Source: Streptomyces rimosus (GTDB taxonomy: Bacteria; Actinomycetota; Actinomycetes; Streptomycetales; Streptomycetaceae). From it: 64,000 bases of DNA. Below the pieces are notes generated by a model, which ran no database searches, was not told the origin of the DNA, and was given only the letters and a program-made list of their open reading frames with translations. The position numbers and the translations under genes were made by a program. The DNA lies in assembly GCF_008704655.1 (NCBI RefSeq), contig NZ_CP023688.1, forward strand, positions 4,030,001 to 4,094,000, given 5' to 3'. Positions 36,375 through 48,848 of this stretch are shown in pieces (positions within the stretch are counted from its first letter, which is position 1; each line of letters begins with the position of its first letter).

Positions 36375-38212
36375 TGGGTCGGCTCCGTTTCGGGCGCGGG
36401 TGCGGCGGTCGTCGCGGGGAACGCGGCGGTGTCGGTCGTACGGGTGTGCAGGGTGTGCGGGGGGCGGTGGGTGACCAGGAAGTGCCGCTGCCAGTGCGCA
36501 TCGTCCCGGTCGGCGTGGTCCTCGCGCCAGTGGCAGCCGCGGGTCTCCTCGCGGCGCATCGCCCCGGCGACCAGCACCCGGGCGACCAGCAGGAGGTTGG
36601 TGACCTCCCACGCCTCGACACCGGGCTCGGCGGGCTTGGGGCGGTCGGTGGGGGTGGCTTCCGGGGCGGCGGTCTGGGCCGCTGTGGTGGCTGCTTCGGC
36701 CGCGTCGCGCTGGAGGCGGGCGAGGGCGGTGGCGGCCTCGGTGAGGCTGGCGGCGGAGCGCAGCACTCCGGCGCCCGCGGTCATGATCCGCTGGATGGCG
36801 GTGCGTGCCTCGGGGGCGAGCAGCGGTACAGGGGCGGCGGCGGGCTCGACGGCCGGTCCCGGGCGGCGGGCGGGCGCGGACGTGATGTCGTCCGCGATGC
36901 GCTCCGCGAAGACCAGCCCCTCCAGGAGGGAGTTGGAGGCGAGCCGGTTCGCGCCGTGCACGCCGGTGCACGCGACCTCGCCGCACGCGTACAGGCCCGG
37001 CACGGTCGTCCGGCCGTACAGGTCGGTCCGTACGCCGCCGGAGGCGTAGTGCGCGGCGGGCGCGACCGGGATCGGCTCGGTGACCGGGTCGATGCCGTGG
37101 GCGCGGCAGGCGGCGAGGATGGTCGGGAAGCGCTCCTCCCACATGCGCGCGCCGAAGTGCCGGGCGTCCAGGTACATGTGCTCGGTGCCCCGCTCGTGGG
37201 CGCGCCTCATGATCGCCTTGGCGACGATGTCGCGCGGGGCCAGCTCGGCGAGTTCGTGCTGTCCGGTCATGAAGCGGATGCCGTCGGCGTCCACCAGGTG
37301 GGCGCCCTCGCCGCGTACCGCTTCCGAGATGAGCGGCTGCTGCCCCTCCGCGTCCGGGCCGAGGTAGAGGACCGTCGGGTGGAACTGGACGAATTCGAGG
37401 TCGGAGACCTCGGCGCCGGCGCGCAGCGCGAGGGCCACGCCGTCGCCCGTGGAGACGGCCGGGTTGGTGGTCGCGGAGAAGACCTGGCCCATGCCGCCGG
37501 TCGCGAGGACGACCGCGGGGGCGCGCACGGCGCCCACGCCGTCGTGCTGGCCCTCGCCCATCACGTGCAGGGTGACGCCGGCGGTGCGTCCTTCGGCGTC
37601 GGTGAGCAGGTCGAGGACGAGCGCGTTCTCGATGGTGCGCAGGCCCTGGGCGCGTACGGCGTCGACCAGGGCGCGGGAGATCTCGGCGCCGGTCGCGTCG
37701 CCGCCCGCGTGCGCTATGCGGCGGCGGTGGTGCCCGCCCTCGCGGGTGAGGGCTATCTCGTCGCCGCCGGGCGTGGTGTCGAAGCGCGCGCCGGTGGCGA
37801 TGAGGCGGCGGACGGCGTCCGGGCCTTCGGTGACCAGGGTGCGTACGGCGTTCTCGTCGCACAGCCCGGCGCCCGCCACGAGGGTGTCGGTCAGGTGCTG
37901 CTCGGGGGTGTCGCCCTCGCCGAGCGCGGCCGCGATGCCGCCCTGGGCCCAGCGCGTGGAGCCGTCGTCCAGGCGGGCCTTGGTCACCACGACGGTGCGG
38001 CGGCCCGCGGCGGCGCAGCGCAGGGCGGCGGTCAGGCCCGCGACTCCCGAACCGACCACGACGACATCGGCCTCGATGGACCAGCCGGGGGCGGGGGCCT
38101 GGAGGCGGAGGGTGGCGTGGTCGGAGGCGGTGGGCATGTCGGGGCCGGTAGGGCCGCTGGGGTTGTCGTGACCGATGGGGTCGTGGTGGCCGATGGGGCC
38201 GGTGCCGGTCAT
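36371..38212 (-). CDS. nadB: L-aspartate oxidase
   Basis: FAD enzyme oxidising L-aspartate to iminoaspartate for quinolinate synthesis. 613 residues. FAD-binding [17 protein letters not shown] near 50-66, the substrate-loop [17 protein letters not shown], the [11 protein letters not shown] motif, HPTVLY, and [20 protein letters not shown]. An N-terminal Gly/Pro/His-rich extension of about 40 residues precedes the FAD domain; the true start could be at the ATG giving [12 protein letters not shown]. It overlaps panC by 4 bp. The third enzyme of the path, NadA, is not in this window. Confidence 0.95.
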
Positions 38213-39234
38213 CGGGGCGCTCCGAATGTGAGGCGGATGTTGTCGATGAGGCGGGTGGTGCCGACCTTGGCGGCGACCGCGAGGACTGCCTCGCCCTCGT
38301 AGGTGTCCGGGACCTCGGTGAAGTCGGCCGGGTCGACGAGCGCCACGTAGTCGAGCGCGAGCGGCGGGTCGAGGCGGGCGGCGTCCTCCAGGACGGCGTG
38401 GGCCGCCGCGCGGGCCACCGCGGGGGCGTGCAGCGGGGTGGCGACGGCGTGCGCGAGGGCGTGCGCGTCGGCTGCCGCGCGGTCCTCACCGAGGGCGGCG
38501 AGCGCCGCGGAACGGTCGTGCGCGCGGTGTGCCGTGCGCGCCGTACAGGAGGCGCGGTCGCGCAGCGCTTCTTCGGCGGCGAGCCGGTCGCGGGCCGCGA
38601 ACAGGGCCCGGGACAGTGCCAGGGCGGTACGGCGCTCGGCGGCGGAGAGGTAGCGGTTGCGGCTGGAGAGCGCCAGCCCGTCGTCCTCGCGGACGGTGGG
38701 GACGCCGACGATCTGTACGCCGAAGTTCAGGTCGGTCACCATGCGCTCTATGACGGCCAGTTGCTGCGCGTCCTTCTGGCCGAACAGGGCCACGTCAGGG
38801 CGCGTGAGGTGCAGCAGCTTGCCGACGACGGTCAGGACGCCGTCGAAGTGGCCGGGCCGGCTGGCGCCCTCCAGGAGGTCGCCCATGGGGCCGGCGGCTA
38901 TCCGTATCCGCGGCGCCCCGCCCGGGTAGACCTCGTCGACGCCCGGCGCGAACACCACGTCCGCACCGGCCGCGCCGGCCAGCACGAGGTCCGCCTCCAG
39001 GGTGCGCGGATAGCGGTCGAGGTCCTCGCCTGCGCCGAACTGGAGCGGGTTGACGAAGACGGTGACGACGACGAGCCCGTCCGGCCCGGCCTGCTCGCGA
39101 GCGGCGCGTACCAGCGTCGCGTGTCCCTCGTGCAGAGCGCCCATGGTCATGACGACGGCCCGCTGCCCGGGGCGGTCCGGCAGGGCCCGCAGTTCGGCCG
39201 CGGTGTGTACGAGGCGGGGGCGCGGGGCGGTCAT
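38209..39234 (-). CDS. panC: Pantothenate synthetase
   Basis: Joins pantoate and beta-alanine using ATP. 341 residues: [19 protein letters not shown] (HIGH-like MGALHEGH at 31-38), [38 protein letters not shown], and [13 protein letters not shown]. After this comes an Ala/Arg/His-rich insert of roughly 50 residues (about 215-265), longer than in enteric PanC, before the C-terminal [12 protein letters not shown]. Overlaps both neighbours as ATGA, so expression is tightly coupled. Confidence 0.95.
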
Positions 39235-40208
39235 CGGTCGCCTTCTTCGGGGTGGTCGGGCCCCTGGTCCTCCTGGGGGCCGGTGCCTGGGTTTGCGGGG
39301 CCGGTGCCGATGTTCGCCAGGACGCCCAGCAGGTCCTCGGCCAGTTCCGGCTTCAGCAGGCCGTGCGCGAGGGCGCGGTCGGCCGTCGTACGGGCCATGG
39401 CGAGGTAGCCCTCGACGCTCTGCGGGGCGTGTTTACGCAGCTCGGAGACGTGGGCGGCGACCGTACCGGCGTCGCCGCGGGCGACCGGGCCGGTCAGTGC
39501 GGCGTCCCCCGAGCGCAGCGCGTTGTCGAGGGCGGCGCCCAGCAGCGGTCCGAGCATGCGGTCGGGCGCGCCGACCCCGGCGCGCCGGAGCAGTTCCATG
39601 GCCTGCGCCACCAGGGTGACCAGGTGGTTCGCGCCGATCGCGAGGGCCGCGTGGTAGAGCGGACGGGCGTCCTCCTCGATCCACTCCGGCTCCCCGCCCA
39701 TCTCGATGACCAGCGCCTCGGCGGCCATCCGCAGCGGTTCGGGCGCGGTGACCCCGAAGGAACACCCGGCCAGCCGCTGTACGTCGACGCGCGTGCCGGT
39801 GAAGGTCATCGCCGGGTGGAGGGCCAGCGGCAGCGCGCCGACGCGGGTGGCCGGGTCGAGGACGGCCGTACCGAACCGGCCCGAGGTGTGCACGAGCAGC
39901 TGCCCCGGCCGTACGGCGCCGGTCTCGGCGAGGCCCGCGACGAGCCCGGGGAGGGCGTCGTCGGGCACGGTGAGCAGCACCAGCTCGGCGCGCTCCAGCA
40001 CCTCGGACGGGGAGACGACCGGGACGTCGGGCAGCAGCGTCGCGGCGCGCCGTACGGACGCGTCGGAGACACCGGACACGGCGACCGGCCGGTGTCCGGC
40101 GAGCTGCAGCGACGCGGCGAGGGCAGGGCCGACACGGCCGGCGCCGACGACTCCGACGGTCAGCCGGGCGGGGCGGTCCTGGGCCTCGGTGGGTGGGATT
40201 GTGTTCAC
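39231..40208 (-). CDS. Rossmann-fold and DUF2520 protein
   Basis: 325 residues. N-terminal dinucleotide-binding motif [20 protein letters not shown], then [20 protein letters not shown] and [19 protein letters not shown]; the C-terminal DUF2520 half is helical ([35 protein letters not shown]). Its architecture is that of NADP-dependent beta-hydroxyacid or ketopantoate reductases. As the first gene of the operon, overlapping panC by 4 bp, it may supply or modulate pantoate; that is an inference. Confidence 0.9.
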
Positions 40209-44364: not shown

Positions 44365-45051
44365 TCAGGCCCCCGCGCCGCCCCCGGCCCGTACGAGCCC
44401 CGTCTCGTACGCCAGCACCACCGCCTGTACCCGGTCGCGCAGCTCCAGCTTCGTGAGGATCCGGCCCACATGGGTCTTGACCGTGGCCTCCGACAGCACC
44501 AGTTGGGCCGCGATCTCACCGTTCGACAGCCCCTGCGCGACCAGCAGCAGCACCTCCCGCTCGCGCTCGGTCAGCCGCCCGAGTTCCGGGCGGGACGGCT
44601 CGGCGGCGGCCGCCGGCAGCATCGGCGTGAACCGGTCCAGCAGCCGGCGGGTGGTGGACGGCGCGACCACCGCGTCCCCGCTCCGGACGGCGCGGATCGC
44701 GGCCAGCAGCTCGTTCGGCGGCACGTCCTTCAGCATGAAGCCGCTGGCCCCCGCCTTGAGCGCGGAGAAGGCGTACTCGTCCAGGTCAAAGGTGGTCAGG
44801 ATGAGCACCTTCGGCGCGTCCTCGTTCCGGCCGTCCGCGCAGATCCGGCGGGTGGTCTCCACCCCGTCCAGATTCGGCATACGGACGTCCATCAGGATCA
44901 CGTCGACCTTGGTGGACCGCAGCACCTCCAGGGCCTCCACGCCGTCACCGGCCTCGGCGACGACCTCCATGTCGGGCTGAGCGGCCAGCACCATACGGAA
45001 GCCGGTGCGCAAGAGCACCTGGTCGTCGACGAGCATCACGCGGACAGTCAT
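44365..45051 (-). CDS. NarL/LuxR-family response regulator
   Basis: 228 residues. Receiver domain starting [20 protein letters not shown], phospho-acceptor Asp in [15 protein letters not shown] (about 53), Lys region [12 protein letters not shown], and a C-terminal LuxR HTH ([39 protein letters not shown]). It forms a two-component system with the histidine kinase gene upstream on the same strand. Confidence 0.93.
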
Positions 45052-45268: not shown

Positions 45269-46480
45269 TCACTGCCCCGACTTCAACGGCAGCACCGCGC
45301 TGATCCGGAAGCCCCCGCCCGGCCGCGGCCCCGCGTCCAGGCTGCCGCCGACCATGCCGACGCGTTCGCGCATGCCGATCAGGCCGTGGCCGAGGCCGTC
45401 GGCGCCGCCGCCCGTGTACAGCTCGTGCTGGGCGCCCCGGCCGTCGTCCTCGACCAGCAGGTCCAGCTCGCCGTCCTGGTAGGAGAGGCGGACCGTGGCA
45501 CCCACGTCCGGGCCGCCGTGCTTGCGGGTGTTGGTCAGCGCTTCCTGCACGATGCGGTACGCGGTCAGCTCGACGCTGCTGGGCAGCGGGCGCGGCTCGC
45601 CCACGACCCGGAAGTCGACCGGCAGCCCGGCACCCCGCACCTGGTCGATCAGGTCCGCCAGTTGCTCCACGCCGGGCTGCGGGACGTACTCGCCGCTCTC
45701 GGGCTGTTCGCCGGTGCGCAGCACGCCGAGCAGGCGGCGCATCTCGGCGAGCGCCTGCCGGCCGGTTCCGGAGATCGTCTCCAGGGCCTGTTTGGCCTGC
45801 TCGGGGGAAGCGTCCAGGACGTAAGCGGCGCCGTCGGCCTGGACGACCATCACGGACACGTTGTGCGCGACGACGTCGTGCAGTTCGCGAGCGATCCGGG
45901 CGCGCTCGGCGGCCACCGCGATGCGCGACTGCGTCTCACGTTCCTTCTCCAGGCGGGCGGCCTTCTCCTCCAGCTGGGCCCAGTACGCGCGGCGGGTCCG
46001 GACGGAGTCGCCGAGCACCCACGCCAGGACGAAGGGGACGGTGAGGAAGGCGATGGTGATCAGGCCCTGCCAGAGGCTGCGGTGCGGGGCCTCGTCCCCG
46101 CCGTACCGGACGGCGGCGATGGTCGGGCCGAGCAGCGCTCCGGCGAGGGCGGTGCGCGAGGCCCAGCGCCGGGTGCCCGAGGCGACCGTGTAGATGATCA
46201 CCAGCATGGCGAGGTTGGACGGCCTGGGCTGTACGTCGGCCCCGACCTGGCAGAGCCCGACCACGATCGTCAGCAGCAGCATCTGCCCGGGCGCCTTGCG
46301 CCGCAGCGCCACGACGAGGCACATCGCGATATCGACGAACGCGTCGGCGACGGTCCGCAGGTCGCTCTGCGTATCCGCCGACGCCACCAGCGTCAGGCTG
46401 CTGACACCGAACAGGAGGACCGCCCAGAAGGTGTCCACGCCGGTCGGATGCCTGCGGAAGAAGTCGTAGAGACGCTGCAC
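45269..46480 (-). CDS. NarL-type sensor histidine kinase
   Basis: 403 residues with about four or five N-terminal membrane helices ([69 protein letters not shown]), a coiled coil, and the HisKA_3 dimerisation region with His in [18 protein letters not shown], then an HATPase ([30 protein letters not shown]). No outer sensory domain, so it probably senses within the membrane, as in many Streptomyces NarL-type pairs. Confidence 0.92.
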
Positions 46481-46648: not shown

Positions 46649-47668
46649 GTGACACACGACTGGTGCGGCTGGCGGGACGCGACGGAGCGGGCGCTGTACG
46701 GCCCCAGTGGCTTCTACACCCGCGGCGACGGGCCGGGCCCCGCCGGTCACTTCCGTACTTCCGTGCACGTATCCCCTCTGTATGCCGAGGCACTGGCCAC
46801 GCTGCTCTGCCGGGTCGACGCGGCGCTCGGCAGCCCGGCGGAACTCGCGCTGGTGGATGTGGGCGCCGGGCGTGGCGAACTGCTGACCGGCGTACTGGCG
46901 GCGCTCCCGGAACCGGTGTGCGCCCGCGTGCGCCCCTACGCCGTTGAACGCGCCCCCCGGCCCGCCGGCCTCGACGAGCGCGTCACCTGGCGCGCCGAGC
47001 TGCCCGCGCCCGGCTCCCTGACGGGCCTGCTCTTCGCCAACGAGTGGCTGGACAACGTCCCGGTCGATGTCGCCGAAACCGACGGGAACGGGGTGCCGCG
47101 GCTCGTCCTCGTGAGCCCGGACGGCACCGAACGGCTCGGCGACCCGGTGACCGGCGCCGACGCCGACTGGCTCGCCCGCTGGTGGCCCCTGCCGCACTGC
47201 GCTCCGGACCACGCCCCCGCCTCCGGGCTGCGCGCCGAGATCGGCCACCCCCGGGACGCGGCCTGGTCCCGCGCCGTACGCGCCCTGCGCGCCGGCCTCG
47301 CCGTCACCGCCGACTACGCGCACTCCCGCGACGCCCGCCCGCCCTACGGCACGCTCACCGGCTTCCGCGAGGGCCGCGAGGTCCGCCCCGTACCGGACGG
47401 CACCTGCGACATCACCGCCCACGTCGCCCTCGACGCCTGCGCGGGCCCCGGCGCCGAGCACCTCACCCAGCGGCAGGCGCTGCACGCCCTCGGCATCGAC
47501 GGCCGCCGCCCGCCCCTGTCCCTCGCCTCCAGCGACCCGGCCGCCTACGTACGGGCCCTCGGCGCGGCGGGCGCGGCGGCGGAGCTGACCGACCCGGCGG
47601 GCCTGGGCTCCTTCGGCTGGCTGCTGCAACCGGTCGGCGGCAGCTGTACGGGGCTGCTCACCAGGTGA
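46649..47668 (+). CDS. MidA/NDUFAF7-type SAM-dependent methyltransferase
   Basis: 339 residues from GTG 46649 ([20 protein letters not shown]). Family pattern: N-terminal [10 protein letters not shown] ... [23 protein letters not shown] loop [31 protein letters not shown] (the conserved NE motif) and [20 protein letters not shown]. The eukaryotic relative NDUFAF7/MidA methylates an arginine of the complex I subunit NDUFS2. It ends 37 bp before a NuoD gene, the bacterial NDUFS2 homologue, on the same strand. Confidence 0.9.
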
Positions 47669-47705
47669 CGGCCGGCGGCGGCCGGCGAGCTGCGAGACTG
47701 TTCCC

Positions 47706-48848
47706 ATGACGGAGACCACGGTCGGCATCGGCGGAGCGGCGGAGAGCACCGACATGGTGCTGAACATCGGCCCGCAGCACCCCTCCACGCACGGCGTGCT
47801 GCGGCTGCGCCTCGTCCTGGACGGCGAGCGCATCCGGCACGCCGAGCCCGTGATCGGCTATATGCACCGCGGCGCCGAGAAGCTCTTCGAGGCGCGCGAC
47901 TACCGGCAGATCATCATGCTCGCCAACCGCCACGACTGGCTGTCGGCCTTCTCCAACGAGCTGGGCGTGGTCCTCGGTGTGGAGCGGATGCTCGGCATGG
48001 AGGTCCCCGAGCGCGCCGTGTGGACCCGTACGCTCCTCGCCGAGCTGAACCGGGTGCTGAACCACCTGATGTTCCTCGGCTCCTACCCCCTGGAGCTGGG
48101 CGGCATCACGCCCGTCTTCCACGCCTTCCGCGAGCGCGAAGAGCTGCAGAACGTGATGGAGGAGATCTCCGGCGGGCGCATGCACTACATGTTCAACCGC
48201 GTCGGCGGCCTGAAGGAGGACCTGCCGGCGGGCTGGCTCGGGCGCGCCCGGCACGCCGTCTCCGAGGTCCGTTCCCGGATGGACGTCTTCGACCGGCTGG
48301 TCCTGGGCAACGAGATCTTCCGGGGCCGCACGCGCGGCATCGGCGTGCTGAGCCGCGAGGCGGTGCACGGGTACGGCGTGTCGGGGCCGATCGCCCGCGC
48401 CTCCGGTGTCGACTTCGACCTGCGCCGCGACGAGCCGTACCTGGCGTACGCCGATCTCCAGGACACGCTCAAGGTGGTCACCCGCGAGGAGGGCGACTGC
48501 CTGGCCCGCTTCGAATGCCTGCTGGAGCAGACCCACAACTCCCTCGACCTGGCCGACGCCTGCCTGGACCGGATCGCCGACCTGCCGCCGGGTCCGATCA
48601 ACCAGCGCCTGCCGAAGGTCCTCAAGGCCCCCGAGGGCGCGACCTACGCCTGGACCGAGAACCCGCTCGGCATCAACGGCTACTACCTGGTCTCCAAGGG
48701 CGAGAAGACCCCGTACCGCCTCAAGCTCCGCTCGGCGTCGTACAACAACATCCAGGCGCTGGCCGAGCTGCTGCCGGGCACGCTCGTGGCCGACATGGTC
48801 GCCATCCTCGGGTCGCTGTTCTTCGTGGTGGGCGACATCGACAAGTAG
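47706..48848 (+). CDS. nuoD2: NADH-quinone oxidoreductase subunit D, solo copy
   Basis: 380 residues of the 49-kDa subunit of complex I. N-terminal [20 protein letters not shown], then [20 protein letters not shown] (Arg55 here), [20 protein letters not shown], and the C-terminal [35 protein letters not shown]. No other nuo gene is near, so this is a second, unlinked NuoD as known in S. coelicolor. It may replace NuoD in alternative complex I forms. Probably co-transcribed with the methyltransferase. Confidence 0.95.

Follow-up and report, generated by a model that had tools for sequence, protein, structure and literature searches.

A MidA/NDUFAF7-family methyltransferase gene linked to nuoD2 in Streptomyces, and its predicted target arginine in a second complex I

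Complex I arginine methylation and the nuo2 genes

Assembly of human complex I needs NDUFAF7, and the Paracoccus enzyme considered below is the main, complete complex I of that bacterium. NDUFAF7 was reported to dimethylate Arg85 of NDUFS2 (PMC3829151), and the methyl-arginine was placed in an HRGXE motif, beside cluster N2 (PMC3750175, PMC8042128). The same arginine was described as unmodified in E. coli, dimethylated in Paracoccus and replaced by Thr in T. thermophilus (PMC3750175, PMC8042128); in Paracoccus it is Arg65 of Nqo4, equivalent in position and symmetrically dimethylated (PMC3750175). When NuoD has no such arginine, a NuoB arginine fills the same space, as T. thermophilus Arg83 does (PMC8042128), and the effect of methylation itself, apart from that of the arginine, was left open in the same paper. 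That the alphaproteobacterial homologues of NDUFAF7 are the methylating enzymes was proposed on bioinformatic and structural grounds (PMC9006661).

A second nuo cluster without N-module genes was described in Streptomyces (PMC3765725), and the presence of nuoA2, B2, D2 and H2-N2, with nuoD2 separate, is already published (PMC3765725, PMC8388888). The locus described here belongs to the same subunit set; what these two papers relate of nuo2 includes no methyltransferase link, no Arg/Thr switch and no exchange of Tyr for Trp. A complex I form without the NADH module was considered ancestral (PMC11238625, PMC3765725); Nuo2 is alike in the absence of this module, yet it shares its cell with another nuo operon, separate from its own. 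Among the open-licence matches listed, no title or opening of an abstract concerned a MidA gene together with nuoD2 in actinobacteria. Compared with eukaryotic NDUFAF7/MidA and NDUFS2 Arg85, the methyltransferase studied here is of the same family (PF02636/COG1565) and its predicted target is the equivalent arginine; however, it is bacterial, its gene is linked to that of its predicted substrate, the methyltransferases of its class lie on a long branch, and it would serve a second complex I, the main one of the same cell having no target arginine.

The methyltransferase, nuoD2 and their arrangement

In the window, that is, the whole stretch of 64,000 nucleotides of S. rimosus DNA that was analysed, a gene for a SAM-dependent methyltransferase of the MidA/NDUFAF7 family (46649..47668, forward strand, 339 aa, GTG start, TGA stop; hereafter MT) is followed, after an intergenic gap of 37 bp (47669..47705), by nuoD2 (47706..48848, forward strand, 380 aa, ATG start), which encodes a paralogue of NADH-quinone oxidoreductase subunit D recognized by PF00346 and the NCBIfam NuoD models. 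These coordinates agree with the original prediction, at which the methyltransferase was said to end 37 bp before nuoD2 on the same strand. Directly upstream of MT, on the opposite strand, lies a two-component pair composed of a LuxR-type response regulator (44365-45051) and a HisKA_3 kinase with DUF7134 (45269-46480). Moreover, panC and a DUF2520/Rossmann gene are found on the reverse strand at 38209-40208 of the window, about 6 kb from MT.

Pfam detected PF02636 (Methyltransf_28) alone in MT, with 65.3 bits against a curated cut-off of 23.3, and this is the one PF02636 match of the genome; none of the NCBIfam models matched MT. When the single sequence was searched against the PDB at E up to 1, only 1zkd (1.4e-8) and the NDUFAF7 homologue 5ztz (1.7e-5), which we take to be Dictyostelium MidA, were retrieved. 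With a profile of 27 MT sequences, 4f3n (3.9e-25), 1zkd (2.3e-17) and 5ztz (MidA, 1.1e-10) were matched and the next match was at 0.063, i.e. all three significant matches are COG1565/MidA proteins; the profile relationship to solved MidA-family structures spans most of the length of MT, and several of its relatives are named “SAM-dependent MidA family methyltransferase” by one source. MT carries an 11-residue element which is presumably its SAM motif, the sequence NEWLDNVP and a C-terminal CDITAHV; we take the SAM motif and the E..D and TAHV elements to be family-defining for MidA/NDUFAF7. Of the 48 MTs of the class 47 or 48, and of the 30 from other classes 29 or 30, retain E132, D135, D222 and T256, which 1zkd has as well; the glycine positions are mostly retained, and R75, N131, H225 and H258 are variable. 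Judged by its sequence, MT belongs to the MidA/NDUFAF7 (PF02636, COG1565) family. The NDUFAF7/MidA type first assigned to it is therefore upheld by the significant profile matches, and no clustering outside the family was seen in the PDB profile search.

NuoD2 reached 237.6 bits with PF00346 and 374.8 with the NCBIfam model NF004739 NuoD (cut-off 360), lying under the cut-offs of TIGR01962 and NF008974, and its similarity to NuoD/NDUFS2 is full-length. The nuo2 run of the same genome, at 5.153-5.164 Mb, reads A2 B2 C2 H2 I2 J2 K2 L2 M2 N2, where M2 was read from a stretch within a longer frame. As PF00346 is found in NuoD1 and NuoD2 only, the nuo2 cluster is without a D, and we infer that NuoD2 is the D subunit absent from it. 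C2 and H2 overlap, so that between A2 and N2 there is no room for E, F and G. The CC, GAC and VPGC cysteines are retained in NuoB2, and hence cluster N2 is expected in Nuo2.

Both MT and NuoD2 are found in 99 of 101 congeneric genomes; the two others, G028 without NuoD2 and G050 without MT, are fragmented drafts of about 1,300 and 1,770 contigs. The adjacency is kept across these related genomes, MT and nuoD2 lying within 1.5 kb of each other in 84 of the 101, where 42 pairs are in tandem with MT first (this genome included), 40 are convergent and 2 are in tandem with NuoD2 first. In 13 genomes the genes are more than 1.5 kb apart (2-18 kb, and 2.97 Mb in one), and in 2 they are on different contigs. 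Adjacency is the rule in Streptomyces and an operon is not: a strict operon model for the genus is rejected because of the 40/101 convergent and the 2 NuoD2-first pairs. Of the originally predicted operon-encoded modifier of an alternative NuoD, the tie to NuoD2 is retained, by co-occurrence, gene order and the residue switch described below, and the strict operon is given up.

The class (Actinomycetes) was surveyed in 148 genomes, of which 64 were matched by PF02636 and 62 by NuoD2 at 1e-95, giving 57 genomes with both genes, 7 with MT only, 5 with NuoD2 only and 79 with neither. After reading the neighbourhoods, MT was added in G119 and G222 and a NuoD2-type gene in seven more genomes (broken into frames in G192), and the counts became 63, 3, 6 and 76; the re-reading was directed mainly at discordant genomes and at those with extra PF00346 matches, so that this corrected table leans towards agreement. 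The MT-only genomes are G114 and G202 (72 and 80% complete, each with a NuoB2-type match) and G166; those with NuoD2 only are G115, G179, G192, G210, G221 and G231. G210, G221 and G231 are 97-99% complete and keep the NuoD2 Arg, and no MT was found in them, either nearby or by PF02636. Among the 129 genomes with at least 90% completeness the respective counts are 54, 1, 3 and 71, and with one genome per family 23, 1, 2 and 13 (Fisher p 2e-7, a value that ignores relatedness). Within family f17, both genes are present in 5 of 10 genomes and neither in the other 5, and f33 has two genomes with both and one with neither; f5, f9, f13, f34, f38 and f39 have at least one genome with a single gene of the pair.

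Outside Streptomyces, 52 genomes of the class have coordinates for both genes, on the same contig in 47 and on different contigs in 5. MT is upstream on the same strand in all 47 same-contig pairs, and the PF02636 match lies within 1 kb of NuoD2 in 11, at 1-5 kb in 33 and farther in 3. At L180 and L194, from two other families of the class, panC and DUF2520 are found beside MT, as neighbours common to the window, and MT is separated from nuoD2 by unrelated genes for a P-type ATPase, a P450, an aminotransferase and a PH-domain protein. With panC and DUF2520 as common neighbours, inherited synteny may explain part of the linkage.

The phylum survey covered 149 genomes, with PF02636 in 49, of which 43 are outside the class. 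For 30 of these 43, the MT locus was inspected together with its 1.5-kb flanks, and a nuo2 gene or D2 was found there in 8 (G256, G261, G247, G369, G329, G371, G298, G365) and in none of the other 22. NuoD was also located in 17 non-class genomes, one per family, and in 8 of them (G365, G256, G371, G283, G345, G369, G248, G261) no more than 12 kb separate MT from nuo2 or D2. In G365, G256 and G371, MT is the next gene after nuoN2 on the same strand and closes a nuo2 operon in which D2 is present; the A2-to-N2 run was seen in full in the first two (L453, L455), and the contig of the third (L456) begins at C2. In G283 and G345, MT is found on the same strand at about 6.5 and 12 kb past nuoN2, and it adjoins D2 or C2-D2 (within about 1.6 kb), convergently or divergently, in G369, G329, G298, G247, G248 and G261. 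A NuoD with Arg is present in 16 of the 17 MT-bearing genomes, the remaining one (G326, two PF02636 matches) showing only a Thr-type NuoD. Thirteen MT-less non-class genomes comprise 7 with an Arg NuoD (in HRC, HRS or HRGF contexts), 1 with a divergent NuoD, 3 without a NuoD match and 2 with only Thr (in G262, among the fragments read). The link between MT and NuoD2 is looser outside the class than within it. G326 and G166 both have PF02636 genes and no Arg-type NuoD was found in either; contamination or another substrate are both possible.

In a quick MT tree with a single outgroup sequence, the MTs of the class are on one long branch beside six from other classes, with a support of 1.0; of these six, four adjoin D2. 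The class clade itself has a support of 0.08. Perhaps, when D2 moved out of the nuo2 operon in the class, MT moved with it.

Residues at the arginine and quinone sites

The Arg55 codon of NuoD2, the predicted methylation site, is at 47868..47870 on the forward strand and was assigned by alignment to NDUFS2 and to the T. thermophilus chain. The residue is the R of HRG in the context YMHRGAEKL, part of an 11-residue stretch, and the 10-residue motif with Arg55 that NuoD2 had been said to keep can be read in the translation. In the alignment with mouse NDUFS2 it falls on the R of LHRGTEKL, and the T. thermophilus residue at this motif position, counted on the printed chain, is Thr64. Its equivalents are human NDUFS2 Arg85 and Yarrowia Arg121 (PMC3829151, PMC8042128). 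The target had been expected near the HRG-EKL motif; the arginine stands as the site, and its position is inside the HRG-EK motif rather than near it.

The main NuoD of the same genome reads YLHTGIEKN, its Thr lining up with Thr64 of T. thermophilus. Reciprocally, NuoB1 has an Arg aligned with T. thermophilus Arg83, and NuoB2 a Thr aligned with that of mitochondrial NDUFS7. Among distinct readable sequences, the NuoD2 site is Arg in 154/154 (101 from the genus, 53 from the class); from genus and class loci together, the NuoD1 site is Thr in 84/84 and the NuoB switch column is Arg in 61/61 NuoB1 and Thr in 50/50 NuoB2, counts at which matches below 90 bits were dropped and from which 1 NuoD2 and 11 NuoB1 fragments without the motif are absent. 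Loci L269-L297 are outside this count and were read separately, showing 13 NuoD1 with HTG and 3 NuoD2-type genes with HRG, together with distant NuoD-like genes below 95 bits to both NuoDs, of which four were read, 1 with HKG and 3 with HRG. The reciprocal pattern indicates that NuoD2 matches NuoB2 rather than NuoB1, and, with Arg in NuoD2 and Thr in NuoD1, NuoD2 would offer a substrate that NuoD1 does not. This inter-subunit Arg/Thr switch is the strongest evidence suggesting a tie between MT and NuoD2. That NuoD2 serves as a spare subunit of the main complex is disfavoured, since in all sequences counted the two NuoDs carry different residues at the arginine site, and so, reciprocally, do NuoB1 and NuoB2.

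Other states of the site were encountered as well. At L439 (G281), the NuoD reads HRGVEK and the neighbouring NuoB carries Trp at what seems to be the Arg83 column (QADGMIVAGW), so that the switch has a third state there. HRS replaces HRG in NuoD copies of L447, L463 and L467 and in the NuoD2 of G210 (L378), and no methyltransferase was found around these on the stretches read; G371 and G281 have HRS-type NuoD copies with MT elsewhere in the genome. A preference for HRG over HRS or HRC where MT is present was seen, with exceptions, and is not claimed.

The quinone head group was reported to be ligated by T. thermophilus Tyr87, equivalent to Yarrowia Tyr144 (PMC8042128). NuoD2 has Trp78 in this place (codon 47937..47939, forward strand), thus lacking the head-group tyrosine by which a complex I subunit D may be recognized, and the site is Trp in 154/154 distinct NuoD2 and Tyr in 84/84 NuoD1. 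Outside the class, Trp is found in Arg-type NuoDs of many genomes, with and without MT, and Arg-type NuoDs with Tyr include those of the MT-bearing G243, G258, G268 and G281. With Trp for Tyr, NuoD2 is to be regarded as a NuoD paralogue whose quinone chemistry is not presumed; Nuo2 may act on another quinone or pass its electrons to an acceptor of a different kind.

Proposed role of the methyltransferase and competing explanations

From the family, gene order, co-occurrence and residue pattern observed, we consider it likely that MT is the actinobacterial MidA/NDUFAF7, symmetrically dimethylating Arg55 of NuoD2 for the assembly of Nuo2, with the main complex I independent of it. Nuo2 would be a second complex I without an N-module, composed of A2 B2 C2 D2 H2-N2. 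MT would methylate Arg55 before or during the docking of NuoD2 onto NuoB2, and the methylated side chain would then reach over the N2 iron-sulfur cluster of NuoB2, locking the two subunits together during assembly; being bulky and less polar, it may give stability to N2 and to the subunit interface, in line with what has been argued for the mitochondrial enzyme. The main complex I would need no MT, its NuoD having Thr and its NuoB supplying the arginine. Against this reading, Arg at the site is also found where MT is absent (in the NuoD2 of G210, G221 and G231 and in 7 of the 13 MT-less non-class genomes), and MT is present without NuoD2 in G166 and with only a Thr-type NuoD in G326; the convergent or distant pairs of Streptomyces and the looser linkage outside the class count against it as well. 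The NuoD2s keeping Arg without MT suggest that the need for the arginine extends beyond the complexes in which it is methylated, E. coli being another such case.

It is unlikely that MT and nuoD2 merely share an old, stable neighbourhood (panC, DUF2520, MT, nuoD2) with no functional link and with the target of MT elsewhere. The panC and DUF2520 genes beside MT at L180 and L194 and about 6 kb away in the window, the unrelated genes between MT and nuoD2 at these two loci and the 40/101 convergent Streptomyces pairs agree with it; the joint presence and absence over 148 genomes and within f17 and f33 speaks against it, and a panC neighbourhood leaves unexplained why MT ends the nuo2 operon or adjoins D2 in other classes. 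A slightly smaller chance is given to methylation of another Nuo2 protein or site, be it another NuoD2 residue, NuoB2 or NuoC2, as linkage and co-occurrence point to the complex and name no residue, and Arg55 persists in some NuoD2s without MT. Yet the known substrate residue of NDUFAF7, as reported, is this very arginine (PMC3829151, PMC9006661), and it is the residue at which the counted NuoD2s have Arg and the NuoD1s Thr.

It was also proposed for Wolbachia MidA that such a protein acts as a DNA or general methyltransferase on gene expression, m4C and m6A marks having been reported after its expression in E. coli (PMC12455994). That MT works in this way is highly improbable: the Wolbachia result was called preliminary by its authors (PMC12455994), and a general role explains neither the dependence on NuoD2 nor the residence in nuo2 operons. 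Going beyond Arg55 methylation, MT, the NuoD/NuoB Arg/Thr exchange and the Tyr to Trp change could tentatively be regarded as one insulation system, preventing D and B subunits from being swapped between the two complexes I, with the terminal site of the second one not reducing quinone in the usual way; we hold this wider interpretation as rather doubtful.

In this genome, one cell harbours two complexes I, one with the arginine and the linked enzyme and the other with neither. MT could be deleted to probe the predicted methylation, leaving the main respiratory complex untouched. Moreover, NuoD2 stands out as a D subunit of complex I in which the quinone tyrosine is absent, and a substrate prediction is gained for many actinobacterial genes of the MidA family.
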